From: Siphonodentalium dalli
Lineage: Eukaryota; Mollusca; Scaphopoda; Gadilida; Siphonodentaliidae
Reading direction: 5' to 3'
Length of the DNA stretch: 64,000 bases
Assembly (NCBI GenBank): GCA_032622095.1
Contig: CP136065.1
Location: 58,585,949 to 58,649,948, forward strand
Shown here: piece after piece, positions 10,133 through 63,197 of the stretch
Numbering within the stretch: the stretch's first letter is position 1
Layout of the letters: each line of letters starts with the position of its first letter
The notes under the pieces: generated by a model
The model's database searches: none
The model's input: only the letters and a program-made list of their open reading frames with translations
Told to the model about the DNA's origin: nothing
Translations under genes and position numbers: made by a program

Positions 10133-10138
10133 TTTATT
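10133..10138 (-). promoter_or_regulatory. polyadenylation signal AATAAA for the CUB receptor gene
   Basis: AATAAA on the minus strand lies about 70 nt past the stop codon at 10207-10209, which is a sensible distance for a short 3' UTR. Confidence 0.5.
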
Positions 10139-10206: not shown

Positions 10207-13200
10207 TTACAAACGGTCACCTCTTGGTATCTCTTGCTCCATTCCCACATGTGTCGCCTCATCATACGTTGGAGGTGGTTCATCTTCAAATGATTCCTCC
10301 ATACTTAAACTTCGTTGAAACTCAATGGTGTGGATGTTAGCATGCAAGAAGTCTTTAACCATCTGCGGAACTCTTGGAGATCTCAATTCAAACTCTTTGC
10401 TCATTTCTAAGTCGCAATTTTCAATTCTGACCTCATGCGTGATGTATGCCTGTTCGGCATTAATGATGACTGGTCGGAAATCTTCATCAGACTGACACAA
10501 ATCTGGGAGATCAGCTCCGTGGACATTACCATATATGGACGTAGTCTTTGGTGGTGGGTGTACTTCGATGGTGTGCTCGTGTGATAAACCTGTCTCGTGT
10601 ATTATGGTATTGAAATTTGATGGCTGAACTTCGATATTCTGCCCCTGTGATGCAGTGGATAATGTGTGTGAGATCTTACACTGTGGCTTGAGCATTATGG
10701 TCCAGATCGGTGTCACAGCTTGAAAGCTAGTACATGATTGTGTAGATCTATTCATACGACCAAATGTCACGGAGTCGCATCGACTTCCGGAGCCCTCGAC
10801 ATAATAGTCCAGTGCTCGACCCGATCGCAGCAGGTTGTTAGTCGGAGCTGTCGTTCTCGCTGGTTGGATTAGTCTTGATTTCTTTGTGTACTTGTGGATG
10901 ACAATACGCAGTGCACATATCAATGCCAGAAAACACATAGTACTGGCAATCATGACTGACACCCTGTACACATAAAACTGTGCCTGGTGACCTGAAAGCA
11001 ATTGTAAACAAGCCTTGAAATAGGGTGTCTTGTCATTTGCAGAATGAGGTCCCCCAGAGGGTGAATTTAGTGATGCTACCCCGCATAGTGGGCTAGCATT
11101 ACCAAATTCACCCTCTGGGAACCTCATTCTGCTAATGACAGACACCCTATCTCAAGGCTTTGATTGTGAAGTACTATAATCAATTCCATTTGATAAGTAG
11201 GCTTTAACTTCTGAAAGGGCCTTGACCCTTTCTTGACTAATTACTCATGGACAAGTAGTTCCCTTAGGAAATTCTCAGAAAATAAGTTCAATAAACGATC
11301 ATATGTCATTTGTTAACTTCATATCTGAACATTTCCCACATGAATAGGAATTCTTCTGCACTTTTTTCGTCTGCTTTTATTTGCTGAATATCCCTCCAGA
11401 TGATTAATAGATTAATCCAACCTCTACCTTTATATCTTGGTGGGAGATTCCATTTAGTAAAATGGTACTGAGGTGACTGGAAATTCAAGATTTGAATATG
11501 CAAGTTGACCCATCTATAAGAAAATGTATTGGCCTAACAAGTTTTATTTAATTTTTTTATAATTGGTTAAAGAATGTAAGAACAAATTATAAAAATTGTT
11601 AGAGAATGTAAGAAAAAATTAAAAAAAAAAATTATAATTAATATAAAACAATTGTTTGGCCAATGCATTCTCTTATATATATATATATGCGAGGCGACCT
11701 ATGGTCTTTACTATATATACTGCTGGAATTCAAAGGCGAGATAATTGCCTTGGATTTGAATCCTAATGGTAATCGCAAAAACTTGAAGGAAGATATTGTT
11801 GTATAGTACGCTCCCTCGTTTATTAGATCAAGTCAATTCCTTTTGGCAGGATAAAGTATAATAGTCCTTAAATCCGGGCAGTGCAGTTCTGGAATGTAAT
11901 CGATGTATGCCAAATTTCATAAATGGTATCTTGTCCAACAAAATAAACTAATGCTTACACAAGTTTTAAAGGCACGGATGGCGTTTGTGATTGTATTGCT
12001 GTTAAAATAGTCATATCCATTAAAACCACCATAAACCGAAAGAATATTAAAATCTAGACTAACTTTTTTCTCATGCAAATCATAAATACCGCATAAATAG
12101 TATGTTATTGTCTAGTTTGTATGCTGTGTTATGTAAACAAAAGCCAAATTCTATTACAGTACAGTATGTAAAGAGTGATGAGCAAAACACTCGGCGGGGA
12201 GACCCCACTAAAGAACTTTAGTTAAAACTGCCACCGTATTGTTTGCAACATACCGACTGGTATAGCACTCGCCAAACAAGATTTTGCTGTTGAATGGGTC
12301 ACTGAATCACTCCCCCCCCCCCACCCTCCCCAGTACTCATCATTCAAACGATTCCACTGGTTAGATGACGTAGCTTTGTTTATAGCAGATTTAGTTTAGG
12401 GAGGCGACATTTTATATCCTTTGAATGAGGACACAAGTGTGGTAGCATCACTAAATTCACCCTCCGGGAACACGAGATTGAATATAAAATGAACTATTTT
12501 TGTAAAATAAGAACCCCCCCCCCCATTGTGATACAAGTCATAGTTACATATGCACATCAATATTTTGAGTTCAATAATAGCTAGGTATGGTATGGTAGCA
12601 ACACAAATTCAGAATATGCTATTAAATTTAATTGGGTATATTTCAAGCATTTCAATTAAATCATGAATGGAATATGTATGTACCAAAATCAGATGTGTTA
12701 GAAAAAATTACCAAGTTTAAGCTTTTCCCGCTGCCTTGCCTCCATGAGCTTCACAGGGCTTATGAAAAAACCACACATTGCCAAGTACGGGGCTTGGGCT
12801 TGTAGGCGTTGATAAAATGTGTTTTTTTTTTATTTAATCTCTTTTTAAAATCAAAATTGGGAAAATCTAATGGTATTTTATCATCCGGCAGGGTAGGGTC
12901 CTGCGAATATTCGAGATTCGATTCGAAAGTCAAATTCGATTCGAAATTGCCAACTCGAAATTTCGAATATACACTGATGGAAAAGTAGGCTGTTTACGGA
13001 CAAGTACACACATCGATCTTAGTTGTTTTTGTACCATTTAATTACAGAAAATGATGTATATATGCACCGTATAATTCTTATTGTACATCGCGATTATATA
13101 TATTAAATATAAGTATAGCCAGCAATTAGCCACTATAGGACTACTAAATACGCCTGAATTATAGCTTTGAACATGGTAGCCAAAAGTTCGGAGATCACCG

Positions 13201-16200
13201 ATGGACCGACAACGCGCGTGAATAATATCTGAGAATTTGAACAACACGTGTTCCCAGCATCGAAAAGTGCATTTTGGCGATGTTTTCTTTTGAAGTTTAC
13301 TTTCAATTTCGGAGCGTTCTTTGACACTTCTTTGACAAAATGTCATCGTTATTCGTGTTTATTTTAAACATGATAAAGCTGCAGGTAGTGCAGGGACTTA
13401 CACGTGAGATGAATTCAACCTGGTGTATAAATTGCAGGCATCTGGGACAATGACCCACCTATGGAATCATCTGTCCAAGAAGCATCCAGCATAACATAAT
13501 CAGGTTACCCTGTGACTGTTGTTGCATCTTCAAGTTTATAACAACGGGTGATTCCGAATGTCGATTTGAAATTTTGCATGTACATGCAAACTGTACAAAT
13601 TTCGCGTGATTTTAGTTCTGATAATCCGTTTAGTGGTTGTATATTAATCGCCGTGACGGCCGCATGGACGTTTTTTTTAAATCTGCCTTTTTTTCTCGAC
13701 AATTATCATTTGAAGTTAATAGTATTGCAATCGACGGTTCATCGCCACATAAGTTATGATGGAACTTCGTGCATGTAGTTGATAGAACGTTTCACAAATC
13801 GTCTAATCGTTGACAAAACATGCCCAATTGAGAATGTAACACACATATATGATTCGATTCGATTTCCAGAATTCGATTCGATCAAAATCTCCAATTCGCA
13901 GGACCCTACGGCAGGGTTACCAGTCATGACACCAAAATGACCGATACTACTCTTTTATAAATGTAAATAGATAGACGATCTCTAATGAGTCCCAATTCTA
14001 TATGAAATTTATTAATCCAATTTAGTGGACAAGGTTAGCAAATTTTGTATAGATTTGCGATGAATTTGAGATCCTTTTTATCAAGGAAAAACGATCTCAA
14101 AACGGCTGGGTTTAAAAAATAGATATTGATTTCCTAATCGCACACCTTCAAGAAAAAATATAGTTCAATTTTAAATTTTTCTTTTCATTTGACAAAATTG
14201 TTCAACCACCCTTATCACCCATGTTTATCTCAGTCAACACTAAATAACGCAACACAAATTGAATATCTTTATTATTATATTCTAATTTACATTGATCGAT
14301 ATCATTGCGCTAAGCTCTTAACGCCACTGCGCGTGCTGATAATACACTTGTGTCTTACTTAAAAAAATATGAGGCTGGATTTATAGGCTAATTATGTGAT
14401 AAATAAAAATCTAGTACCTCTGTATACAAGTGCATCGGGGTGATCTTTGCAGTCATCGGGATCCTTGTTTTTGGATCGAGAGTTGAAGGAGAACACAAAT
14501 CCTTTGCCATTATGCTCAGAGTTGGAGTGGAAGTGTATGTATATATGATTCCTCGCACTAATGATACATACACCTTTCTCTGTACTGTTTGTTGAGCAAT
14601 ATCTTTCCCTCTCTTCAAGATAACTTTCATCTGGAATGAAATTTGTTGGTTGACATTGCTACATCACAGTAATTCAGCTTCATTCAGTTAGAGCTGCTGC
14701 AAAGAAATAAGCTCAGTCGATGTCAGTCAAGAGACTCATTGAAAGAGTTGTGTCCTTTGTAAAATTGGGCAGCAATCATTTGAACTTCTAACAAACTGAA
14801 TGTGGCTGAAATTTGCTGCATGGCAAAATGTTTTGTTTTTATATGCACGTTTTGAAGAAAAAAATGGTATGTTATTGGACCGTCCGTCAGTTCCCTTTTT
14901 TCATTGCTGGATGATGACTATAGTAAGTCTGAACTGAATGGAATGAAATTTAGTATGTGGGTTTACAAGCCCAAAATACAGGTCATGTCCGAATTTGGGA
15001 TCCGCCCACCAAATTTTGCCCGAGTTATGGTCCTTGTCTACTCAAAATTTGCGAATTATTTTGGTTTCTGAATGATAACTTTAATTTAGTTGTCTGACTG
15101 TTTTCAAATTTTGTATGTGGATTAGCAACATGAAAATACAGGTCATGTTTGAATTTGGGTTCAGTCCGCCTAATTTAACCAGAGTTATGGTTCTTGTTGA
15201 CTTATAATTTGTTTTCCGGGTGACGGCTTCAGTTATAGTTATGTTTGTTTTCAAATTTGGCATATGGATTACTCATCATGGCCCTTTGTTGAAATTACCA
15301 TTAGTGTATTTTGCCATGCTCCAGCAATGCTCTTGTTAAAGTCTGAGGTTGCACATTTTGGCATTGGCGAATTTTGACATATTAAAGGGATACTATACTC
15401 AAATGTTGTTGTTGGTTTCTATAGTCTCTGAGTCGTAGAATAAGCTAACCAGATTTCCATTATTTGAAAGTTTGTTGAGAACTAAGTAATGTTATTAATG
15501 GCAGATTAGCCGGAATGCGAAATTGTCGTTGTCGAGTAATTTTTGGACAGTTTTCAAGCAAATGTATCAAATAAATGTTATATTATATGCATAATGGTCC
15601 AATTTACTCATTTAAGTCATTGTATAGTCACTAGTCAGTGAGTGGCTTTAGTTTACGCCCCATATCAACATAATTTTCTATACGATCATGTGTTGCCCAA
15701 TCCACTATCCGTGAATTATTTTGCTTGCGTCTTGTACACAGAAATTTGTAATTCAATTTATGGCTCCAGCCATAAATTAAATTTATATCAAATTATTAAC
15801 TTTGATTTTAAGATAACCTATTAACCTGAACGTTTACAGAATACATCTTCGACTCAAATTACTTAGTTTTCTATATATTATCGATATTAGATCATTGTTA
15901 TCACCGGGAATTTATTGAAAATGGCGTACATTACCCCTTTAAAAGAAGCAGAATCAATTTATATAGAAAGAGTATGGATCTGTCTGTCCGTCCATCTGTC
16001 TGTTCACAATTTTTCTCCCAGACCCCTGGATTGGCGATGCAGGATATCTTGGCGAATGTTATAACAACATTAATTTTTTTCAAATTTTTTTTTTTTAAAT
16101 TGAGCAAGTTCAATAACCTTTTTTTTTTAATTATAACAAATTTTTTTAAATTAATAAAAAAAATGTGTTTAAACTAATAAACAAAATATATGTATATATA

Positions 16201-19200
16201 AAAAAAAAATGTGCGCAAAGCACACAAAGGGGCCTTTGTGCAGGGGCTGCAGGCCCCCACGCCGCTGAATAAACCTTGAGTAGCCTCTCAGCTAGTATTT
16301 TATATTTAAAAAAATGCTTGTAAATGAAGTCGAGAAAGAAATCGGCTTTATTTAAATGTTCTACAGGTGTGACCCTTTGTGTCATCTATTGATCTTTTTA
16401 AAACTTTTGTTTAACCCTTTCTATATTAAATACTCATTGACGAGTAGCTATCCCTTAGGAAATATTCAGATAGGTTGATTGATGAACTTATATTATCTGA
16501 ACATTACCCTCCAATAATTAGGACTCCTTCTGAACATTTATTATTGTTTGGTTGTCTCCTTACATTTACTGAACATCCATACGGATGAATCTCACATTTA
16601 CTGAACACCCATCTGGATGAATCTTACATTTACTGAACACCCATACGGATGAATCTCACATTTACTGAACACCCACCCGGATGAATCTTACATTTACTGA
16701 ACACCCATCCGGATGAATCTTACATTTACAAAACACCCACCCAGATGAATCTTACATTTACTGAACACCCCTCCGGATGAATCTTACATTTACTGAACAC
16801 CCCTCCGGATGAATCTTACATTTACTGAACACCCCTCCGGATTAATCTTACATTTACTGAACACCCCTCCGGATGAATCTCACATTTACTGAACACCCAT
16901 CTGGATGAATCTTACATTTACTGAACACCCATCCGGATGAATCTTACATTTACTGAACACCCATCCAGATGAATCTCACATTTACTGAACACCCATCCGG
17001 ATGAATCTTACATTTACTGAACACCCCTCTGGCAGTGTTCGCGCTGTCGGTAGCCAAATTAGCCAATGGCTAATCTTTTTCGAATTTGGCTAATAAATAT
17101 ATCTTTTGGCTAAACTTTTGGCTAAATTTTGTTTTACCCCAAATGTAGACGGAAAGCATTGAGTCAGTTGTAAGTAATTAGTAACATGATCTCAATGTAG
17201 ATACCACAAAACATAATTATTAATTTGTTACAGTTAATCCTCCCTTTGTTGTTTGGATTATGGACGCATCCAGTCATTGTACCAATTCATATTAATGGCG
17301 ACACTATATAGCACGTATTTATGTCAACGCTATGTTACCAGCGAGTATAAGACAATAGGTTAATCAGCCGAATATGAATGGCGACGGATTAATTTATGAC
17401 TCGTTGATTTCAGAAATAATACAAGGCGAAATGACAGTACGCCTGATGAGTGTGTATCAATACTAAACGCAGTTTCCAGGCTGGAGTCGCTTAGATATTT
17501 ATTGTTACTTTGATATTTGTGAATAATTCTAACTTGCCTTTCTAGTAGCTCATTTTACCTGTTTCTGTGGTTAATTTTGACTGTATATAACGAATTATTA
17601 GCGCAATTAAATTTGGCAAATATTTTTTTAGTTGTTTTTGTGTTGTTTTAATTATGTTTTTATACTGAGTAACAAATAATGTTTAAAGCAAATATTTTAG
17701 TCATTAATTGTGAACCGCCCAGAAAATGAGGATTTAATTTGGCCAAAAACCATTTGGCTAAAGTTTTTTTCATTTGGCTAATAAAATTTTCATTTGGCTA
17801 AACTTTTGGCTAAAATATTTTTCGATCCAGCGCGAACACTGCCCTCCGGATGATAATCTTACATTTACTGAACACCCATCCGGATGAATCTTACATTTAC
17901 TGAACACCCCTCCGGATGAATCTTACATTTACTGAACATCCATACGGATGAATCTCACATTTACTGAACACCCATCTGGATGAATCTTACATTTACTGAA
18001 CACCCATCCGGATGAATCTTACATTTACTGAACACCCATCTGGATGAATCTTACATTTACTGAACACCCATCCGGATGAATCTCACATTTACTGAACACC
18101 CATCCGGATGAATCTTACATTTACTGAACACCCCTCCGGATGAATCTTACATTTACTGAACATCCATCTGGATGAATCTTACATTTACTGAACATCCATC
18201 TGGATGAATCTTACATTTACTGAACACCCATCTGGATGAATCTTACATTTACTGAACACCCATCTGGATGAATCTCACATTTACTGAACACCCATCCGGA
18301 TGAATCTCACATTTACTGAACACCCATCCGGATGAATCTCACATTTACTGAACACCCATCCGGATGAATCTTACATTTACTGAACACCCATCCGGATGAA
18401 TCTCACATTTACTGAACACCCATCCGGATGAATCTTACATTTACTGAACACCCATCCGGATGAATCTTACATTTACTGAACACCCCTCCGGTTGAATCTT
18501 ACATTTACTGAACACCCCTCCGGATGATAATCTTACATTTACTGAACACCCATCCGGATTATTCTTACATTTACTGAACACCCACCCAGATGAATCTTAC
18601 ATTTACTGAACACCCCTCCGGATGATAATCTTACATTTACTGAACACCCCTCCGGATGAATCTTACATTTACTGAACATCCATACGGATGAATCTCACAT
18701 TTACTGAACACCCATCCGGATGAATCTTACATTTACTGAACACCCACCCGGATGAATCTTACATTTACTGAACACCCATCCGGATGAATCGTACATTTAC
18801 TGAACACCCATCCGGATGAATCTTACATTTACTGAACACCCCTCCAGATGAATTATAGACTATTCCAATGTATACTTTTATAACTTGTGGGAGAGTCCAT
18901 TTAGTATTGAAAGGGTTAACAAATTATGCCCGTCACCATCAAAACTCACTGTATTCCTGAACAGAAACATAGTCGTTATCCTCCTCCCCACAGCATTCAT
19001 TGTCTTTATGCAGATCAATGGTGACCAGCTGTAAAACAACTACACTGTCCTCGTCCGGGGCACTTATACGCCATGTGCAGTCGGTGTTCCTGGTAAATAA
19101 GCAATTCACTTTGGTTTAATACAATAATGGCGCATCTAATTAATCATAATTTTTACGAACATTAGATAACTGCCTGTTTTAATACAGTGTCAAATATCCT

Positions 19201-20668
19201 GAAATAGGTTCCATTCCAATAATTCTACATTTTTTTTTATCTGTAAATTGCATAAATTCACATTCAATATTGGTTGGTTAAAAGGTCTAAATGCAGGTTA
19301 ACTGAAATTTTATTATTTCTTAAGAAGCATTATCTCTTCCACAACATTATCTATATAATTTCTTGGCTATGAAATAATAAATATGAATCGAAGACCCCTG
19401 TCCGGACATGCGTCTCAATTAATATTGATTTTATTTGGAATTTTGTTCGTATAAAATAACTCTGTGTGGTTCAATAATGGTCCGTGATATTCACAACCGT
19501 CTGATTTATTTGCGTTTTTTTTTTTTATTTTCAGTTATTTTAATCATTGAAAATAAGCATATGATTCACTCTAGGTCTTATTCACTTGATTCGCACTTAA
19601 TATTACAATAGATACAATCAATCAGAGACATTTTGCAGCTCGCATTCGTCGGAGCATCACGCTGGAGGCCTCTATTTAAAAGTTCTATTTATAGAACAAA
19701 GAAATGTTCCATTAATTGAATAAAATAATATCGTAATAAAATCAATTGATTGATAAAATCATTTCCGGGTAGGGATTTCCAACTCGTATGTATTATTTCA
19801 TACTCAGGAAACTATTTAAAAAAAATGTATTTAAAGAGATAATCCATATTTAATATGGAATGATGTGATGAATGATCAGTTGGAAATCACTTTTATATAT
19901 CAAGTCAACTTTCAAGGACAATTGATTTCCCAGTTAGGCCACAACAATATTATTTGATGGTTTGCAAACCTCAGGGAAAATAATCTCTTGATGGAGGGGA
20001 GATGCTATTAATATTATGACTGAGAGAACGGTTAGGTTTTTTTTAAAACATTTTGTTTGCATATTCGGTAAAAGGGCTGTCGACAGATTTTAAACCATCT
20101 ATTTAAATTGGTTTCACCAAAGGAATGGTGGTACCTTCTACAGTAATGCTCTAATTAATCGACCTCTTAACCACAGCATAATTATGGGTAACTTTTCAGG
20201 ATTTAGTCGGAAATATGGCTTGTTGCCATTCATCGTAAAGCTCTCCCTGAGAGCTTTCCGATGAATGGCAACAAGCCATATTTCCAACTAAATCCTGAAA
20301 AGTTACCCATAATTCTGCTGTGGTTAAGAGGTCGATTAATTAGAGCATTACTGTATAAGAGACCCTGGAGAATAGGTTTGGTTCACAAAAAGAGGAGATG
20401 CCACCACACAGTCCAAAGTGGTAGCAGGACCCTAACCAAATAATTTGACATCCAATTCGATTGATTGCTGATCTATCTCCACAGTTTTTTTCACACCAAG
20501 ATACATGTATATCATAAAAGTAAATCAAATTTAATTAGACCAACCTGTGGTATGTTGGTGACTCAAGTGGGTAAAGAAGGTGCCTGGCAACGGTCTCTGC
20601 TTCAAGGTTTATAATATGGTCAGCAGCGAATTTTTTAGAACCCAACCAACATTCACCGCTATGAAGCA
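10207..20668 (-). CDS. CUB-domain single-pass membrane receptor, last four exons
   Basis: Exons in transcript order: 20668-20545 (124 bp), 19089-18950 (140 bp), 14630-14418 (213 bp), and 10991-10207 (terminal, 260 codons plus TAA). Intron phases 2, 1 and 1 agree on both sides, and all borders are AG/GT. Exons 1-3 encode one CUB domain of about 110-120 residues: GECWLGSKK, LESPTYH, then NTDCTWRISAP, a CUB-like acidic stretch (ECCGEEDNDYVSV), YCSTNS..GVC and IHFHSNSEHNGKGF. That gives the four CUB cysteines and the NxxGF strand. Exon 4 gives a short linker, a ~22-residue hydrophobic helix (MIASTMCFLALICALRIVI) with HKYTKK as stop-transfer, and a ~220-residue cytoplasmic tail with PPPTYDEA near the end. 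PPxY motifs bind WW domains such as those of NEDD4 ligases (family knowledge). The incoming phase-1 acceptor means at least one upstream exon (signal peptide) is missing. I found no convincing candidate. Function is inferred as a cell-surface receptor or adaptor, and the subfamily is unassigned. Confidence 0.87.
11010..11160. mobile_element. GAATGAGG foldback element abutting the CUB gene's last acceptor
   Basis: The outer ends 'aagccttgaaatagggtgtc' and its complement (..gacaccctat..caaggctt) enclose the palindromic 'cagaatgaggtcccc' arms. Its inner boundary is only ~18 bp from the splice acceptor at 10992-10993, so element sequence supplies the region where the branch point and pyrimidine tract should lie. 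Confidence 0.85.
11206..11490. mobile_element. decayed relative of the TTAA minisatellite-bearing MITE
   Basis: Shows the same order of blocks as 16411-18919: 'gaccctttct', 'actcatggacaagtagttcc', 'ttaggaaattctcag', 'tgaacatttcccac', a single 'tgaatatccctccagatga' unit, then 'ggtgggagattccatttag'. It appears to be the unexpanded form: one repeat unit where the 16.4-kb copy has about 46. Terminal TTAA is lost. Confidence 0.7.
11510..11700. repeat. TTAACCC MITE fragment, inverted arms
   Basis: 'ataagaaaatgtattggcc' and 'ggccaatgcattctctta' are inverted arms around an AT-rich centre, ending in an (AT)n run and 'gcgaggc'. They match interior parts of 38675-38919. Confidence 0.6.
11966..12160. 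mobile_element. fragment of a TTAA element related to 42059-42576
   Basis: Starts TTAAAGGCACGGATGGCG. Further in it shares 'agtatgttattgtc' and 'gttatgtaaacaaaagc' with the element at 42059. The far end was not located. Confidence 0.5.
12161..12893. other. intron DNA with two poly-C tracts and a foldback fragment
   Basis: Poly-C runs of 11 lie at 12312-12322 and 12514-12524. 12439-12473 carries one arm of the GAATGAGG family ('tagcatcactaaattcaccc'). No exon was seen. Confidence 0.55.
12894..13908. mobile_element. hAT-superfamily element with BED zinc-finger remnant
   Basis: Inverted ends TAGGGTCCTGCGAAT / ATTCGCAGGACCCTA are flanked by an exact 8-bp duplication CGGCAGGG (12886-12893, 13909-13916). 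That target length and the TAGGG end are hAT hallmarks. Subterminal 'cgattcgaa' motifs repeat on both sides. On the plus strand near 13440-13495 a frame reads GTMTHLWNHLSKKHP and then stops. This is the second half of a BED-type zinc finger (H-x4-5-H) as in hAT transposases. Upstream, 13262-13280 gives a possible SAFWRCF, echoing the BED aromatic block. No DDE/dimerisation domain fits in 1 kb, so this is a deletion derivative. Confidence 0.88.
13965..14115. repeat. dispersed palindromic repeat, family shared with 46760-46945
   Basis: Contains 'tctctaatgagtcccaattc', 'gaaatttattaa', and the end 'gatctcaaaacggctggg'. 46760-46945 shows the same blocks reversed and more complete. Confidence 0.6.
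14116..14417. other. CUB-gene intron DNA, nothing recognised
   Basis: AT-rich, with no repeat or exon identified before the exon that begins (in plus coordinates) at 14418. Confidence 0.5.
14631..15381. repeat. intron with a weak ~160-bp tandem motif
   Basis: Blocks 'aaatttagtatgtgggttta', 'aaatacaggtcatgt', 'gaatttggg' and 'agttatgg' recur near 14947-15060 and 15107-15215, with a weaker third near 15250. The same wording (a 'ttatggtcc' block after a 'cggtt' gap) reappears around 48020-48200. Non-coding. Confidence 0.5.
15382..15942. mobile_element. TTAA element, ends AGGGGTACTGTACGCC, copy 1
   Basis: Left end TTAAAGGGATACTATACTC and right end ..GTACATTACCCCTTTAA. The interior 'ttgttgttggtttctatagt', 'tttcaagcaaatg' and 'catcttcgactcaaattact' matches 51046-51643 throughout. 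TTAA flanks make it piggyBac-like by target. It has no transposase. Confidence 0.8.
15950..16305. mobile_element. Helitron-like or unclassified dispersed repeat
   Basis: Starts with 'atatagaaagagtatggatc' and 'tgtctgtccgtcc', then 'ttctcccagacccc', an A/T-rich centre, a GC hairpin 'ggggctgcaggcccc' and an end 'gctagtat'. The start and core match 62445-62710. A TC..CTAGT arrangement with a 3' hairpin would fit a Helitron, but the hairpin is farther from the end than usual, so the class is uncertain. Confidence 0.4.
16560..17032. repeat. 32-bp minisatellite, left part
   Basis: Tandem units of 'tttactgaacacccatccgg' + 'atgaatct(t/c)aca'. Unit variants differ mainly at 'cat/cct/cac' and 'tta/tca'. 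It continues after the hAT insertion. Confidence 0.95.
17033..17841. mobile_element. non-autonomous hAT element nested in the minisatellite
   Basis: Inverted ends CAGTGTTCGCGCTG / CAGCGCGAACACTG are flanked by 8-bp ccctctgg (17025-17032) and ccctccgg (17842-17849), one mismatch, i.e. a target duplication of a minisatellite unit. Subterminal regions carry clustered 'ttggctaa' motifs at both ends, a typical transposase-binding layout. No coding capacity. Confidence 0.88.
17842..18855. repeat. 32-bp minisatellite, right part
   Basis: Continuation of the array, about 31 units (about 46 including the left part). Some units carry a 3-bp insertion ('gatgataatc'). Strings of identical variants suggest recent local duplications. 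Confidence 0.95.
19090..20140. other. CUB-gene intron, no exon seen
   Basis: AT-rich. 19395-19445 ('cctgtccggacatgcgtctc', 'aattaatattgattttattt') resembles 58235-58290 in the intron of the PERCC1-like gene, so a dispersed repeat is shared. Confidence 0.5.
20141..20353. mobile_element. palindromic mariner-type MITE, copy 2
   Basis: CAGTAATGCTC..GAGCATTACTG arms with TA on both sides (20139-20140, 20354-20355). The two arms are nearly identical over ~100 bp, centred at 'aaagctctccctgagagctt'. It lies in a CUB-gene intron. Confidence 0.9.
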
Positions 20669-30289: not shown

Positions 30290-31208
30290 GTGCAGTGGAG
30301 ATGACATTAATCTATGTCTTTTTGCATATGGGACGGTGGGGTGAAAAAATTCCTTCACCACACTATTACAAAAGAACCTTCCAGAAACGTAAAACTTAAA
30401 TAAATAAACTTGTCTTGATGTCGCTAAGGCCTAAAAAAAAAAATACCTTTGTTGTAGCTAACGAGCTAAAAAAAATTAGGGTAGGTAGGTAGGCTTAACT
30501 TCTTTTTTTTTGTTAACTTTTTTTTTTCCAGTATCTTTATAAATAACTGAATAATATTCAATCTTACATATGCTTATTTACAGATATACTAGTCTATATA
30601 CTAATATAGTCTTTGATAATCCTAATATTTCCCATATGGTCTGGCGACAACTGGAGTCAGTCCAGCACCACTGCACTGTTCACATATTGGAGTGACTGTC
30701 TTGTACCGATCTCTTAAGGATGGCTTCACAACACCACCTTCTCCTCCGCATTCAGTGAAGGATCTAGGTATTTTTGGGGGACACCTGTTTTTGGGCAATG
30801 ATATGCCGAAGGCATAACCTGAAGGCCTGAGCGAAGGAATGCTTGAGAAGGGTGACCCCCTGATGATGGTGGGGGTTTTCCCCCTGGAAAGTTTTTGAAA
30901 ATCCATTGCATTTAGAGCTAATCTAAGGCTCTTTGAGTTAGTATTTTGAATTTTACTGAGAGGCCAATTTGATCAAGTTTCTCAAGTATAACTTTGGAAC
31001 TTTTTTATATATGTATGGATTGGAAATGCTTATAAGTTATTGTCAGATATCTTTTGGTTCAATGGATTATGCTTATCCTGCTTGAAATGAGACTTGCTAT
31101 TATCACTCTAATTCATAAATAGGCTATTTTATAAAATTCAAGTGAGACACATACCGTACATAATATACTACATGTACATGTAGGACATGTAGTACAGAAA
31201 TACTACAT
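30290..31208. repeat. 918-bp tandem duplication, copy 1
   Basis: Begins 'gtgcagtggagatgacatta' and ends 'acagaaatactacat'. It is essentially identical to 31209-32126 apart from a T-run length and an added A. A third, truncated start copy lies at 29468-29530. Confidence 0.95.
30622..30906 (-). CDS. 94-codon ORF of unknown status, copy 1
   Basis: The open frame ends in PSLRDRYKTVTPICEQCSG and ARPYGKY. It contains SFTECGGEGG and a CxxC (ICEQC). Composition is more protein-like than other frames here, and the C-terminal half could be a terminal exon with an acceptor near 30791 on the minus strand (aaaaacag). There is no recognised domain. It may derive from a dispersed element because it sits in repeat-rich DNA and is duplicated exactly in 31540-31824. 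Confidence 0.35.
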   Translation of the reverse strand: MDFQKLSRGKTPTIIRGSPFSSIPSLRPSGYAFGISLPKNRCPPKIPRSFTECGGEGGVVKPSLRDRYKTVTPICEQCSGAGLTPVVARPYGKY

Positions 31209-32126
31209 GTGCAGTGGAGATGACATTAATCTATGTCTTTTTGCATATGGGACGGTGGGGTGAAAAAATTCCTTCACCACACTATTACAAAAGAACCTTC
31301 CAGAAACGTAAAACTTAAATAAATAAACTTGTCTTGATGTCGCTAAGGCCTAAAAAAAAAAATACCTTTGTTGTAGCTAACGAGCTAAAAAAAATTAGGG
31401 TAGGTAGGTAGGCTTAACTTTTTTTTTTTGTTAACTTTTTTTTTTCCAGTATCTTTATAAATAACTGAATAATATTCAATCTTACATATGCTTATTTACA
31501 GATATACTAGTCTATATACTAATATAGTCTTTGATAATCCTAATATTTCCCATATGGTCTGGCGACAACTGGAGTCAGTCCAGCACCACTGCACTGTTCA
31601 CATATTGGAGTGACTGTCTTGTACCGATCTCTTAAGGATGGCTTCACAACACCACCTTCTCCTCCGCATTCAGTGAAGGATCTAGGTATTTTTGGGGGAC
31701 ACCTGTTTTTGGGCAATGATATGCCGAAGGCATAACCTGAAGGCCTGAGCGAAGGAATGCTTGAGAAGGGTGACCCCCTGATGATGGTGGGGGTTTTCCC
31801 CCTGGAAAGTTTTTGAAAATCCATTGCATTTAGAGCTAATCTAAGGCTCTTTGAGTTAGTATTTTGAATTTTACTGAGAGGCCAAATTTGATCAAGTTTC
31901 TCAAGTATAACTTTGGAACTTTTTTATATATGTATGGATTGGAAATGCTTATAAGTTATTGTCAGATATCTTTTGGTTCAATGGATTATGCTTATCCTGC
32001 TTGAAATGAGACTTGCTATTATCACTCTAATTCATAAATAGGCTATTTTATAAAATTCAAGTGAGACACATACCGTACATAATATACTACATGTACATGT
32101 AGGACATGTAGTACAGAAATACTACA
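31209..32126. repeat. 918-bp tandem duplication, copy 2
   Basis: See copy 1. Beyond 32126 the sequence continues with 'acatgtacatgtagtacaga', a palindrome-rich stretch that probably served as the crossover region. Confidence 0.95.
31540..31824 (-). CDS. 94-codon ORF of unknown status, copy 2
   Basis: Amino-acid identical to the ORF at 30622-30906. Identity between copies reflects recent duplication and is not evidence for selection. Confidence 0.35.
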   Translation of the reverse strand: MDFQKLSRGKTPTIIRGSPFSSIPSLRPSGYAFGISLPKNRCPPKIPRSFTECGGEGGVVKPSLRDRYKTVTPICEQCSGAGLTPVVARPYGKY

Positions 32127-44639: not shown

Positions 44640-46760
44640 TGAATGTTCTCATACCGGGAATATAGAACCATGGTTTATGAATATATAGGGTGTTAGGCCT
44701 GAGCACTGAGGTGCAAGGGGGTGCAAATGGAATTATGCAAAACTTGTGTTTGATCTGATTCTGATTCAAGGGGGAGGGGTGCAGTTGGAAATTCCCCCCA
44801 AGGTGGACACACCCCAACTGAGACCCTCTAGCCACGTCCCTGCTTGAACTACGCTCGCTTTTGTTATATCCATGCAGATCCGTTCTTGGGGTTCAAAAAT
44901 ATACATCTCTTTATTTTCTCCAATTCAGGAGAGTATGTCTGAACACAAAATGAACACACGAAATAAGCGATAAACATGCATTTACAGAATAATATGAAAT
45001 GAAAAGTCAGATATACGCTTCTGCGATATATACTACGATCATATAGCATGCAAAACCCACCGAATTCAATCTGTTCCCGATGTTGTAAAAATAAAGAGCG
45101 TTTGTGTAATTTCTGTGCCAAATTGAAATGGTTATGACTTTGGCATTTTTTTGTGCAGAGTATATATAAAGCACCTTGATGACTTGATAGATTTTGTGTA
45201 TTAATTTATCGACATATTATTTTATCCGTCCGCCGAACTTATACATAGACGTAAGTTGGAGGTTCAAATGAACCATTTCCATTTAATTGCTCAAATTCAA
45301 ATTGTACAATGAGTGGTGGCACATCGCGGGCATGCATACTAATGACTTACCTCGTTGGGCCGAACCCCCGAGAAAACTGAGTATGAAGATTGCAATCCAT
45401 GGATATATTGTTGTTTTCACCATCTCCTTACTCCCACATGCACCTGGATATAAATTTTAACAACTGGGTTAAATAGAAGTATAATGGAAGTATAATTTAA
45501 TAACCCATTCATGTCTCAAAGTATTCTGAAATTCAGTTCTAACAGTATGTAGTTAAGTGACCAGTTAATAGACCACCCCCACTCTCGGAGGGGAGGTGTA
45601 CTGGGTTGACCGCGTCTGTCAGTTTGTCCGTCCGTTTGTCCGTCCGATCTCCAATGATGTATATATATAGGCCTTGTGAGCCTGCATGTGAGATGAGATG
45701 AATTTAACAAAAATGCTCTTTAAAAAAACACTTCTCCGATATGACGGAGAATTCACCTAACAAGTGTCCTTTGGTGGCTACGTCCGCCCGGCTTGATAAC
45801 TCAACTGCGCCCGTCAGTAATTCGTCAGGAAGTTTGTCAGTCCGTCCGGCTTGACAACACAACTGCGTCCGCCAGTTTAACAGTCCGTTTGTTCGCCCGT
45901 CCGTAACTCGAACAAATATGAACCAATTTCAACAATTTTTGGTTACTTGCCACAATATCTCAAATAAGTGAGCCAACCAGGTTTGTCCCGATTGTTTTTT
46001 GCAGTGGATAAATGTACATAAATTATAAAAGTCTGTAAAAATATCAGCAATAAGAAGAACATGGAGAAATAGATAAACTTTGTTCTGATATTCATTACTA
46101 TACAATCATGTAGTTATCCAAAAACGAAACTTTGAAAGTTCTAGCCATCCTTATGTAAACAAAGATGTAACATGAACGTGCCACAGTGATTTGCATGTCG
46201 ACAAACATCGCTGATCGCATAGTAATATTTAGTCTGAATGTGATTTTCAGAATATTTTTCAATGGTTTGACCTTTTTCCAATGTTTACTGTCAGGTTTTT
46301 ATTAAACTTTGGTATCTTTTTGTGCAAATTTGACTTTTATCGGTAATTCCACTGTTTTCGTATTAATAACAATTATTTTGACACGAATATCACTATTAGA
46401 GAGTTATTAATAATTAAAATATGTCAATATGTCGTTTTTTATATTTTATCACGTAATTTGCCCCTAAACCCGGCCTCAATTTTGTAGTAGGATACCTGTA
46501 TCGGCACGCGCAATGACGTAAGTACATAGCGCAATGATATCGATCAATGTTATTATTATGTTAATTAGAATATAATTATGATATATAATTTGTGTTGGGT
46601 TATTTAGTTTTGATTGTGAGATAAACATGGGTGATAATGGTGGCTGAACAATTATGCCAGCATGAAAAGACACATTTAAAATGGATCTATATTTTTTCTT
46701 GAAGGTGTCTTTACTTCCTCTTTGGTTGTGATAAGGAAATCAATATTATTATTGTTTTAA
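44640..46760. other. no gene; repeat fragments
   Basis: 44700-44845 belongs to the 'ttggaaatt' family and ends 'gaccctctagccacgtccct', wording shared with 52360-52380 and 21850. 45590-45910 has repeated 'ccgtccg' and 'gtcagtttgtccgtccgttt' stretches. Minus-strand ORFs up to 85 codons lack support. Confidence 0.45.
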
Positions 46761-52440: not shown

Positions 52441-52445
52441 GTGCT

Positions 52446-55400
52446 ATTACTAGACGGCACCTATCGCTATTACTATACGTCACATAAATATTACCAGACG
52501 GCACCTATAGCTATTAATATACGGTACTTATAGCTATTACCAGACGGCACCTATATTTATTACTATACGGCACATAGCTATTACCAGACGGCACCTATAG
52601 CTATTACTACACGGTACTTATAGCTATTACCAGACGGCACCTATAGTTATTACTATACGACACTTATAGCTATTACCAGACGGCACATATAGCTATTACT
52701 AGACGGCACCTATATATATTACCAGGCGACACTTATAGCTATTACTAGACGGCAGCTATTGCTATTACCAGACGGCAGCTATAGCTATTACCAGACGACA
52801 CATGTAGCTATTATACTAGACGGCACCTATATATATTACCAGACGACACTTATAGCTATTACTGGACGGCACCTATATATATTACCAGACGACACTTATA
52901 GCTATTACTAGACGGCAGCTATTGCTATTACCAGACGGCAGCTATAGCTATTACCAGACGACACATGTAGCTATTATACTAGACGGCACCTATATATATT
53001 ACCAGGCGACACTTATAGCTATTACTAGACGGCAGCTATTGCTATTACCAGACGGCAGCTATAGCTATTACCAGACGACACATGTAGCTATTATACTAGA
53101 CGGCACCTATATATATTACCAGACGACACTTATAGCTATTACTGGACGGCACCTATATATATTACCAGACGACACTTATAGCTATTACTAGACGGAACAT
53201 ATAGCTGTTAATATACGGCACCTATAGCTATTACAGACGGCACCTATAGCTATTACTGGACGGCACCTATATATATTACCAGACGGCACTTATAGCTATT
53301 ACCAGACGACACTTATAGCTATTACCAGACGACACTTATAGCTATTACCAGACGACATATATAGCTATTACTATACGGTACTTATAGCTATTACCAGACG
53401 GCACATATAGCTATTACTAGACGGCGCATATAGCTATTAATAGACGGCGCATATAGCTATTACTAGACGGCACTTGTACTAAATTATAGCTATTACCAGA
53501 CGGCAGCTATAGCTATTACTATACGGCACTTATAGCTATTACCAGACGACACCTATAGCTATTACCAGACGGTACTTATAGCTATTACCAGACGACACCT
53601 ATAGCTATTACCAGACGGAACATATAGCTGTTACTATACGGCACCTATAGCTATTACTGGACGGCACCTATATATATTACCAGACGACACTTATAGCTAT
53701 TACCAGACGACACTTATAGCTATTACCAGACGACACATATAGCTGTTACTATACGGCACTTATAGCTATTACCAGACGACACATATAGCTATTACTATAC
53801 GGTACTTATAGCTATTACCAGACGACACCTATAGCTATTACCAGACGGTACTTATAGCTATTACTAGACGGCAGCTATAGCTATTATCAGACGGCACCTA
53901 TAGCTATTACCAGACGGCACCTGTAGCTATTATACTAGACGGCACCTATATATATTACCAGACGACACTTATAGCTATTACCAGACGGAACATATAGCTA
54001 TTACTAGACGGCACCTATAGTTATTACTAGACGGCACATATAGCTGTTACTATGCGCACATATAGCTATTACAGACGGCACCTATAGCTATTACTGGACG
54101 GCACCTATATATATTACCAGACGACACTTATAACTATTACCAGACGACACATATAGCTATTACTATACGGCACTTATACTAAGTTATAGCTATTACCAGA
54201 CGGCAGCTATAGCTATTACTATACGGCACCTACAAATATTACTATACGGTACTTATAGCTATTACCAGACGGCAGCTATAGCTATTACTATACGGCACCT
54301 ACAAATATTACTATACGGCACTTATAGCTATTACCAGACGGCACCTACAAATATTACTATACGGTACTTATAGCTATTACCAGACGACACCTATAGCTAT
54401 TACCAGACGGCACTTATATATATTACCAGGCGGCACTTATAGCTATTACCAGACGACACATATAGCTATTACCAGACGACACATATAGCTGTTACTATAC
54501 GGCACTTATACTAAGTTATAGCTATTACCAGACGGCAGCTATAGCTATTACTATACGGCACTTATAGCTATTATCAGACGGCACATATGGCTATTACTAT
54601 ACGGCACTTATGGCTATTACCAGACGGCACCTACAAATATTACTATACGGCACTTATAGCTATTATCAGACGACACCTATAGCTATTACCAGACGGCACT
54701 TATATATATTACCAGACGGCACTTATAGCTATTACTAGACGACACCTATATATATTACCAGACGACACTTATAGCTATTACCAGAAGGCACATATAGCTA
54801 ATAATAGACGGCGCATATAGCTGTTACTGGACGGCATCTATATATATTACCAGACGACACATATAGCTATTACCAGACGACACATATAGCTATTACCAGA
54901 CGACACATATAGCTGTTACTATACGGCACTTATACTAAGTTATAGCTATTACCAGACGGCAGCTATAGCTATTACTATACGGCACTTATAGCTATTATCA
55001 GACGGCACATATGGCTATTACTATACGGCACTTATGGATATTACCAGACGGCACCTACAAATATTACTATACGGCACTTATAGCTATTATCAGACGACAC
55101 CTATAGCTATTACCAGACGGCACTTATATATATTACCAGACGGCACTTATAGCTATTACTAGACGACACCTATATATATTACCAGACGACACTTATAGCT
55201 ATTACCAGACGGCACATATAGCTAATACTAGACGGCGCATATAGCTGTTACTATACGGCACTTATACTAAATTATAGCTATTACCAGACGGCACTTATAT
55301 ATATTACCAGACGGCACTTATAGCTATTACTAGACGACACCTATATATATTACCAGACGACACTTATAGCTATTACCAGACGGCACATATAGCTAATACT

Positions 55401-56556
55401 AGACGGCGCATATAGCTGTTACTGGACGGCACTTATACTAAATTATAGCTATTACCAGACGACAGCTATAGCTATTACTATACGGCACCTACAAATATTA
55501 CTATACGGTACTTATAGCTATTACCAGACGGCACATATAGCTATTACTATACGGCACTTATAGCTATTACCAGACGGCACCTATAGCTATTACCAGACGA
55601 CACATATAGCTGTTACTATACGGCACTTATACTAAGTTATAGCTATTACCAGACGGCACATATAGCTATTACTATACGGTACTTATAGCTATTACCAGAC
55701 GACACCTATAGCTATTACCATACGGCACCTATAGCTATTACCAGACGGTACTTATAGCTATTACTAGACGGCAGCTATAGCTATTACCAGACGGCACCTA
55801 TAGCTATTACCAGACGGCACTTATATCTATTACCAGACGGCAGCTATAGCTATTACCAGACGGCTCCTATAGCTATTACTAGACGGCAGCTATAGCTATT
55901 ACCAGACGGCTCCTATAGCTATCACCAGACGGCACATATAGATATTATGAGACGGCACATATAGCTATTACTAGACGGCACATATAGCTATTTCCAGACG
56001 GCTCCTATAGCTATTACCAGACGGCACATATATCTATTACTAGACGGCACATATAGCTATTACTATACGGCACATATAGTTGTTACTGTTCGGCACCAAT
56101 ATCTATTACTATACGGCACTTATAGCTATTACCAGACGGCACCTGTAGCTATTACCAAACGACACCTATAGCTATTACTAGACGGAACTTATAGCTATTA
56201 CCAGACGGCACATATAGATATTACCAGACGGCACCTATAGCTATTACTAGACGGCACCTATAGCTATTACCTGACGACATATATAGCTATTAATAGACGA
56301 CATATATAGCTATTACTATACGGCACCTATAGCTATTAACAGACGGCACCTATTGCTATTACTATAAGGCACTTATATCTATTATTAGACGGCACCTATA
56401 TAGCTATTACTATACGACACATAAAGCTATTACCAGACGGCACATATAGCTATTACTATACGGCACCTATACAGCTATTACCAGACGGCACCTGTGGCTA
56501 TTACCAGACGGCACATATAGCTATCACTAGACGCCGTAGACGGCACCTATCGCTAT
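52446..56556. repeat. 4.1-kb satellite array of 23-bp units
   Basis: Roughly 175-180 units of 'tagctattaccagacggcac' + 'cta' with variants 'ctagacgg', 'tatacggc', 'cgacact', 'tatatatatt' and 'ctacaaatatt'. Variants are organised in higher-order blocks: a ~424-bp block starting at 54502 is repeated almost exactly at 54926, and a ~126-154 bp block is repeated at 52728, 52882 and 53008. A 10-bp insertion ('ctaagttata' or 'ctaaattata') marks units near 53471, 54171, 54502, 54926, 55261, 55431 and 55621. Because 23 is not a multiple of three, open frames are rare and accidental. Confidence 0.97.
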
Positions 56557-58807: not shown

Positions 58808-58810
58808 GGA

Positions 58811-59656
58811 ATGGAAGAACATCGATGGTTATCTCTTAATAACAGACATTCTGGTAGCGAGCAGACGACACATTGTGTTCCCACCACTGTTATCAAGAGA
58901 ACACCTGTAACGGAATGGAATCGTCACGTTGTACCTTTTAGAACCCAGGGAAGTGATTCGGATGAGTTTAGTGATCATGATTCCCATTATTCGGAAGATT
59001 TCGCAGACGAACCGCAGGAATCAGCAAATTTCGAGGAATCAGAGGATACACAGTGCCTATTATCATTTCTCAAAAATGTGGATTCAGATATCCAGAAATT
59101 CTTCGGAAAGAAAAACGACAAAGGTGACTCTTGTGAAATATATGAGGATAAATGGATCTCAACGAAATCCGGACGCGAACTTTATTATGACGAGCTTCTT
59201 AAAATAGCGAAGGGAGATAACGGCGAAATCGTAGGAAAGAACAGTGCAAATCAAAATGGAGGCCGAACTACGTACTCTGGGACGATGGACCCAAAGAAGG
59301 GTCTAGGACCCTTTAGTGAGTTGTTTGAATATGGATTGTATTCGTTCTACGGAGATCAACAGTTGAACAAAAGTGCGAAACGTATGGTGCTAAAACGCGC
59401 CAACAGTTTAGTGCCAATGTCGGGAAGGAAGTTTCCAATTTCATTTTGGCGGGAACCTCAACCTGGTTGCCGTGGAAATGCGCGTGAGAAAGTGAAACCG
59501 ATTACTGCCAGCTTGAACATGTTGCATCCTACATATCCTCCGGATTTCAGTGATCTGCTCCAAAGTTGGACGGGTGAAGTTCTGAACACTGGAAATCACA
59601 GTAGCGGTGATTGTTCTAGCGATACAAGTCTAATATCTAGCGAATCTTCAGTGTAA
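58811..59656 (+). CDS. PERCC1-like protein, 281 aa
   Basis: A single coding exon from ATG 58811 to TAA 59654-59656, with an in-frame TAG just upstream fixing the start. Layout: a polar N-terminus (1-45); an acidic serine/aspartate stretch (SDSDEFSDHDSHYSEDF, 48-64); a conserved-looking block LLSFLKNVDSDIQKFFGKK (83-101) and CEIYEDKW (108-115), SGRELYYDELLKIAKG (120-135); GPFSELFEYGLYSF (166-179); KFPISFWREPQPG (207-219); PPDFSDLLQSW (243-253); and a Ser-rich tail. From memory, vertebrate PERCC1 has the same order of motifs (..DIQ.(Y/F)FG.K, SARELYY, ELFEYG, P.SFW.EP, PDFSDLL..W). PERCC1 is needed for enteroendocrine cells in mammals, and its molecular role is unknown. No signal peptide, membrane helix or known catalytic motif is present. 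A 5' exon ending at 58155 and a 598-bp intron are predicted. The 29-bp minisatellite starts ~210 bp after the stop. Confidence 0.72.
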   Translation: MEEHRWLSLNNRHSGSEQTTHCVPTTVIKRTPVTEWNRHVVPFRTQGSDSDEFSDHDSHYSEDFADEPQESANFEESEDTQCLLSFLKNVDSDIQKFFGKKNDKGDSCEIYEDKWISTKSGRELYYDELLKIAKGDNGEIVGKNSANQNGGRTTYSGTMDPKKGLGPFSELFEYGLYSFYGDQQLNKSAKRMVLKRANSLVPMSGRKFPISFWREPQPGCRGNAREKVKPITASLNMLHPTYPPDFSDLLQSWTGEVLNTGNHSSGDCSSDTSLISSESSV

Positions 59657-62940: not shown

Positions 62941-63197
62941 AAGACTTGACATTAACATAGTGTGTCTGTCATTTGCAGAATGAGGTCCCCAGACGGTGAA
63001 TTTATTGATGCTACGCCGCATAGCGGGCTAGCATCACCAAATTCACCCTCTGGGGACCTCATTCTGCTTACACCTCAGTAGATTGAGGTCCCCAGAGGGT
63101 GAATTTGGTGATGCTAGCCCGCTATGCGGGGTAGCATCACTAAATTCACCCTCTGGGGACCTCATTCTGCAAATGACAGACACCCTATTTCAAGGCT
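62941..63197. mobile_element. GAATGAGG foldback element, two hairpins with short core
   Basis: 'catagtgtgtctgtcatttg' start and 'caaatgacagacacc' + 'ctatttcaaggct' end. Two near-perfect 'gaggtccccaga' hairpins are separated by only ~15 bp ('cttacacctcagtagatt'), i.e. the composite form with its core deleted. Confidence 0.82.

Follow-up and report, generated by a model that had tools for sequence, protein, structure and literature searches.

A predicted single-CUB type I membrane protein with a PY motif in its cytoplasmic tail in the scaphopod Siphonodentalium dalli

What kind of protein is encoded by a gene whose exons, save the last, are hidden from a search for long open reading frames (ORFs), and does its single CUB domain stand alone or form the membrane-proximal end of a larger receptor? 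These questions arise from a sequence-only reading of a 64,000-nucleotide stretch of the Siphonodentalium dalli genome, in which four segments had been joined into a CUB-containing membrane receptor. We refer to this whole stretch (C5:58585949-58649948, in a genome of 2.23 Gb assembled into nine contigs) as the window and give positions within it; the gene and its parts lie on the minus strand. The locus is a single-copy animal gene coding for a cell-surface protein, and a genome search with the four-exon protein as the query returned the locus itself and no close paralogue at E values up to 1. The model that we describe comprises a signal peptide, one CUB domain, a 32-residue stalk, one helix and a tail, in a type I protein of 444 residues.

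Exon structure of the gene

The four exons occupy positions 20545-20668 (exon A), 18950-19089 (exon B), 14418-14630 (exon C) and 10207-10991 (exon D). They join with phases 2, 1 and 1, as had been proposed: all three junctions are of the GT-AG type, and the frame is continuous down to the stop at 10207, with an AATAAA polyadenylation-like signal 69 nt 3' of the stop codon (10133-10138). Exon A, which is defined by its GT-AG borders and its frame, is entered in phase 1 and left in phase 2, and it carries the N-terminal part of the CUB region, including C31. Exon B encodes the CUB core, from C70-T-W-R-I to NDYVSVQEY, and is left in phase 1; its donor reads GTGAGT, and ending the exon there keeps the frame. 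The end of the CUB domain (C124 and the NGKGF strand) and most of the stalk are contributed by exon C, also left in phase 1, and exon D adds the end of the stalk, the membrane helix, the cytoplasmic tail and the stop codon. Exons A and D are each unique in the genome.

The earlier statement that only the last exon is visible as a long ORF is correct. Most of the gene is invisible as ORFs, and exon D lies in an open frame of 314 aa; when the window was shuffled 100 times by a Markov model, the longest frame had a median of 142 aa and a maximum of 232 aa. We also applied a frame-specific coding score based on position-specific dinucleotides, for which 20 of this genome's CUB exons served as the training set, and compared the exons with random stretches of the same length. 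Exons B and C each rank in the top 0.7% and exon D in the top 0.03%, whereas exon A (10%) and the signal-peptide exon described below (24%) are not decided by the score. Raw sequence alone can yield a correct multi-exon gene, even one that is mostly invisible as ORFs.

Several repeats lie between the exons and elsewhere in the window. The intron that separates exons B and C consists largely of a 32-bp minisatellite (consensus CTTACATTTACTGAACACCCATCCGGATGAAT; 16559-18853), which stops some 100 bases short of exon B. At about 17027-17844 the minisatellite is split by an unrelated insert with TTTGGCTAA-type repeats at its ends, perhaps a mobile element. Two inverted-repeat elements, at 11040-11150 and 62977-63170, have AGAATGAGGTCCCC..GGTGAATTTAGTGATGCTACC in common and are likely MITE-like; the first sits a short way upstream of exon D, in the C-D intron. 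A 4.1-kb tandem array at 52443-56533 consists of about 176 copies of a 23-bp unit with a 46-bp higher-order period. On the plus strand, a 281-aa open frame at 58808-59653 (start codon at 58811) matches Pfam TEADIR3 with an E value of 6e-5; its 23.5 bits fall slightly short of the cut-off of 26. This frame is probably a TEAD co-regulator gene, and molluscs have been reported to have PERCC1 relatives (PMC9710580). A search with the hemocyanin family PF14830 yielded no match.

The 5' end and the first intron

The first codon of exon A is incomplete, with only its last two bases present, and an upstream exon ending in phase 1 is therefore needed. Every upstream ATG of this strand was examined for two features, a hydrophobic signal core and a donor of the required phase, and a single candidate was left, at 45351-45423 (MVKTTIYPWIAIFILSFLGGSAQR). 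It has a start codon in a strong Kozak context (AAGGAGATGG), a predicted signal peptide (MVKTTIYPWIAIFILSFLGGSA) and a strong donor (AGG/GTAAGT), and it ends in phase 1, as exon A needs. Used as a genome query, this single-copy exon returned only itself. It joins exon A in frame, and the resulting coding sequence comprises five exons and 1335 nt (444 aa) in a single frame with no internal stop. About one in 60 Markov shuffles yielded a candidate at least as good (top score 14.43 versus 13.85 here); because shuffled sequence can outscore it, we interpret the candidate as the probable signal-peptide first exon of the gene, short of proven. An in-frame genomic stop lies just 5' of the ATG with a CAG acceptor between the two, which makes an intron in the 5' UTR possible. 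In this model, phase-1 introns flank the CUB region on both sides, so that it forms a symmetrical module between the signal-peptide exon and the exon encoding the helix and the tail.

The predicted first intron spans 24.7 kb. In its 148 ORFs on the minus strand (minimum length 40 aa), we detected no convincing extracellular Pfam domain, in a scan that shorter exons and non-Pfam domains could escape; the same was true of 64 minus-strand ORFs farther upstream (minimum length 44 aa) and of 56 plus-strand ORFs. In particular, LDLa, TSP1, EGF, Sushi and a second CUB gave no match in the 148 intron ORFs or the 64 upstream ORFs, in which very short exons are not represented, and none of the window's six frames contained a motif pattern for LDLa, EGF or Sushi. 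A search of the first intron for exons by splice-site score returned nothing, but its thresholds would miss the genuine exons B to D too, and we therefore do not treat it as evidence. The probable signal-peptide exon, in the right phase, and the lack of a recognised extracellular domain in 148 intron ORFs weaken the earlier suggestion that further domains might come from missing 5' exons.

Two other features of this intron deserve mention. The best match among the 148 ORFs was to PPTA (prenyltransferase-alpha) at 44867-45205 on the minus strand, with an E value of 8.5e-4, under the curated cut-off; we attribute it to chance, as the frame stops right behind the match and no GT donor precedes that stop. 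A direct duplication on the minus strand has left two open stretches, each of about 115 aa and almost identical to the other, at 30625-30972 and 31543-31923, some 950 bases apart.

These data bear on the possibility of a larger receptor with several domains, of which the CUB would be the membrane-proximal one, either a TSP1-CUB protein like Golden goal (Gogo) or a NETO/LRP12-like protein with LDLa and additional CUBs, in which case further exons would lie farther 5' or have gone unrecognized and the signal-peptide exon at 45423 would be a coincidence. The great length of the first intron, the frequency with which shuffled sequences match or surpass the candidate exon and the blindness of ORF-based scanning to short exons are all compatible with such a receptor, and Drosophila Gogo, which crosses the membrane once and has one CUB and one TSP1, provides a precedent (PMC2377342). 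Against it stand the scans of the intron and upstream ORFs and the motif patterns, which revealed none of the domains that it calls for, as well as the single first-exon candidate to pass, with its strong Kozak context, strong donor and required phase. We consider a larger receptor unlikely and retain the five-exon model with a lone CUB domain.

CUB domain, membrane helix and tail

The joined exons match the Pfam CUB profile (PF00431) with a score of 51.6 bits, where 21.4 is the cut-off, and an E value of 1.4e-13, over residues 38-136 of the four-exon product and profile positions 20-110. Exons B and C lie inside the match, whereas only the last residues of exon A (TYHR) do. The joined product also scores 37.8 bits with a profile derived from eight of this genome's own CUB exons. 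Among Protein Data Bank entries, the sequences closest to it belong to the CUBs of neuropilin-2 and PCPE-1 (E values of 2e-4 to 5e-4). The NxxGF strand of the sequence-only reading is present as NGKGF in exon C, and its claim that all four CUB cysteines are encoded stands in part: C70, C98/99 and C124 align with the profile, but C31, the candidate for the first cysteine, precedes C70 by 39 residues and falls outside the matched region, and the first cysteine appears not to be canonical.

In the numbering of the 444-residue protein, the signal peptide spans about residues 1-22, the CUB domain extends to about residue 161, and the stalk (162-193), helix (194-215) and tail (216-444) follow. The ectodomain contains seven cysteines (31, 70, 98, 99, 124, 134 and 173) and two N-glycosylation sites (residues 113 and 127). 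With an odd number of cysteines, one of them may be unpaired or may link two chains into a disulphide-bonded dimer. Contrary to the earlier reading, the CUB domain does not abut the membrane: the stalk, with the extra cysteine C173, separates it from the helix.

Calcium-binding CUB domains (cbCUBs) have three acidic ligands, the E of a DxE strand, the D of YD and the D of SD. We take the H of DLH, the D of NDY and the N of HSNS to be the equivalent sites in the domain described here. Alignment with CUBs of the same genome indicates that the E is replaced by H and the last D by N, and that the D of NDY is kept; with two of the three ligands replaced, a calcium-dependent binding site is unlikely. 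Judged by its sequence, the CUB domain is divergent. Elsewhere in the genome, CUB exons form dense clusters at C7:9.69-9.93 Mb and 10.56-10.74 Mb, one entirely on the plus strand and the other entirely on the minus strand, which suggests that CUB genes form a large tandem family, part of which has been duplicated in inverted orientation.

The membrane helix (VSVMIASTMCFLALICALRIVI; 10897-10962, residues 194-215) reaches a 19-residue hydropathy peak of 2.35 and is followed by HKYTKKSR, positive inside. Together with the signal peptide, it gives the protein a type I topology, as judged by hydropathy and motif. The cytoplasmic tail comprises 229 residues, not the ~220 estimated earlier, and is probably disordered. 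The predicted PPPTYDEA is indeed there, read directly as EPPPTYDEA (10255-10281, residues 421-429), and its PPTY (residues 423-426) conforms to L/PPxY; it is the one PY motif of the tail. Among shuffled tails, [PL]PxY occurred in 5% and [PL]PxY[DE][DE]A in 0 of 20000, the latter being a descriptive figure, as this pattern was picked after viewing the sequence. The tail also includes YGNV (10522-10533, residues 337-340), a possible YxxPhi endocytic signal by pattern match only.

Commissureless (Comm) and PRRG4 bind Nedd4 via their PY motifs, and the extended PY motif of Comm, GLPSYDEAL, to which EPPPTYDEA bears a resemblance, is essential for its function in midline crossing (PMC5578492); CYYR1 binds WWP1 via PPxY motifs (PMC11399591). 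Exons encoding HECT domains exist in the same genome. As Nedd4 binding by Comm has been reported to be important for endocytosis at the neuromuscular junction and not for Robo sorting (PMC5578492), the role of the PY motif may differ in the protein described here.

Relation to known proteins and proposed function

The sequence-only reading could match this combination of CUB domain, membrane helix and tail to no named family, and we found no closer one either. The architecture is not without parallel, however, since two near-identical genes of the same genome, C3:289213501 and C3:289521498, also encode a signal peptide, one CUB, one helix and a cytoplasmic tail. In a one-to-one comparison, they show weak similarity to this protein in the signal-peptide/CUB part (22% identity, E value of 2e-5); unlike the gene studied here, they are intronless, hold the CUB whole in one frame and encode another tail, without PPxY. 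The two genes (289.21 and 289.52 Mb) lie in opposite orientation, 0.31 Mb apart.

Among named membrane receptors, LRP3/10/12 combine CUBs with LDLa repeats, and LDLRAD3 has a PPxY tail and LDLa repeats. The former resemble this protein by their CUBs and the latter by its tail, but both differ from it in their LDLa repeats, of which we found no pattern in six frames of the window and no Pfam match in the scanned ORFs. Golden goal has one CUB, a single membrane pass and a tail with no catalytic domain, like this protein (PMC2377342), and a TSP1 before the CUB, a domain absent from the scanned ORFs, which very short exons may escape. PRRG1-4 and Commissureless share with it a single pass and an extended PY motif (LPSYDEAL in Comm, PPTYDEA here; PMC5578492), whereas the PRRG ectodomain is a Gla domain and not a CUB; the CYYR1 tail carries several PY motifs instead of one. 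Single-CUB proteins have been described as widespread among animals (PMC4890752), and this, with the two intronless genes, places the protein among known kinds of membrane protein, as an ordinary if uncharacterised receptor or sorting adaptor.

We favor, with a probability of about 0.55, a single-CUB type I receptor or sorting adaptor resembling PRRG4 and Commissureless, whose PY motif would recruit NEDD4-family ligases. We infer that the CUB domain would bind either a ligand outside the cell or a partner receptor's ectodomain, using a surface independent of the usual calcium site, and that the PY motif would engage the WW domains of NEDD4-family ubiquitin ligases. The protein and its bound partner would then be ubiquitinated, internalized and sorted to endosomes.

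The protein could instead be an auxiliary subunit of a channel or neurotransmitter receptor, its CUB holding the partner, its tail serving as an anchor and its PY motif merely setting turnover. NETO1/2, SOL-1/2 and LEV-10 are likewise type I proteins with extracellular CUBs, and LEV-10, SOL-1, SOL-2 and Neto have such a role in invertebrates (PMC9083331); neuropilin-2 is also among the nearest solved CUBs. NETO, SOL-1, SOL-2 and LEV-10, however, have two to five CUBs, mostly with LDLa (PMC9083331), and neither a second CUB nor the LDLa that accompanies two CUBs in NETO and SOL-2 was found in the scanned ORFs, very short exons possibly excepted, so that we regard an auxiliary subunit as improbable. 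That the gene is a decaying copy, or a set of mis-joined ORFs with no product, is very unlikely: exon A and the signal-peptide exon lack a decisive coding signal, but five exons share one frame that is stop-free over 1335 nt, exons B to D bear a coding-frame signal and the genome holds no second copy to serve as the parent.

A decidedly speculative extension of the receptor or sorting-adaptor reading is that the gene might represent a lineage-restricted family in which a single calcium-independent CUB is coupled directly to a sorting motif of the Comm/PRRG type. Such proteins would be CUB-based counterparts of Commissureless, clearing partner receptors off the cell surface. Should the sorting role prove false, the gene would encode one more uncharacterised CUB membrane protein. 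If it is true, the PY-motif adaptors that determine which receptors remain at the cell surface would gain a member with a CUB ectodomain.
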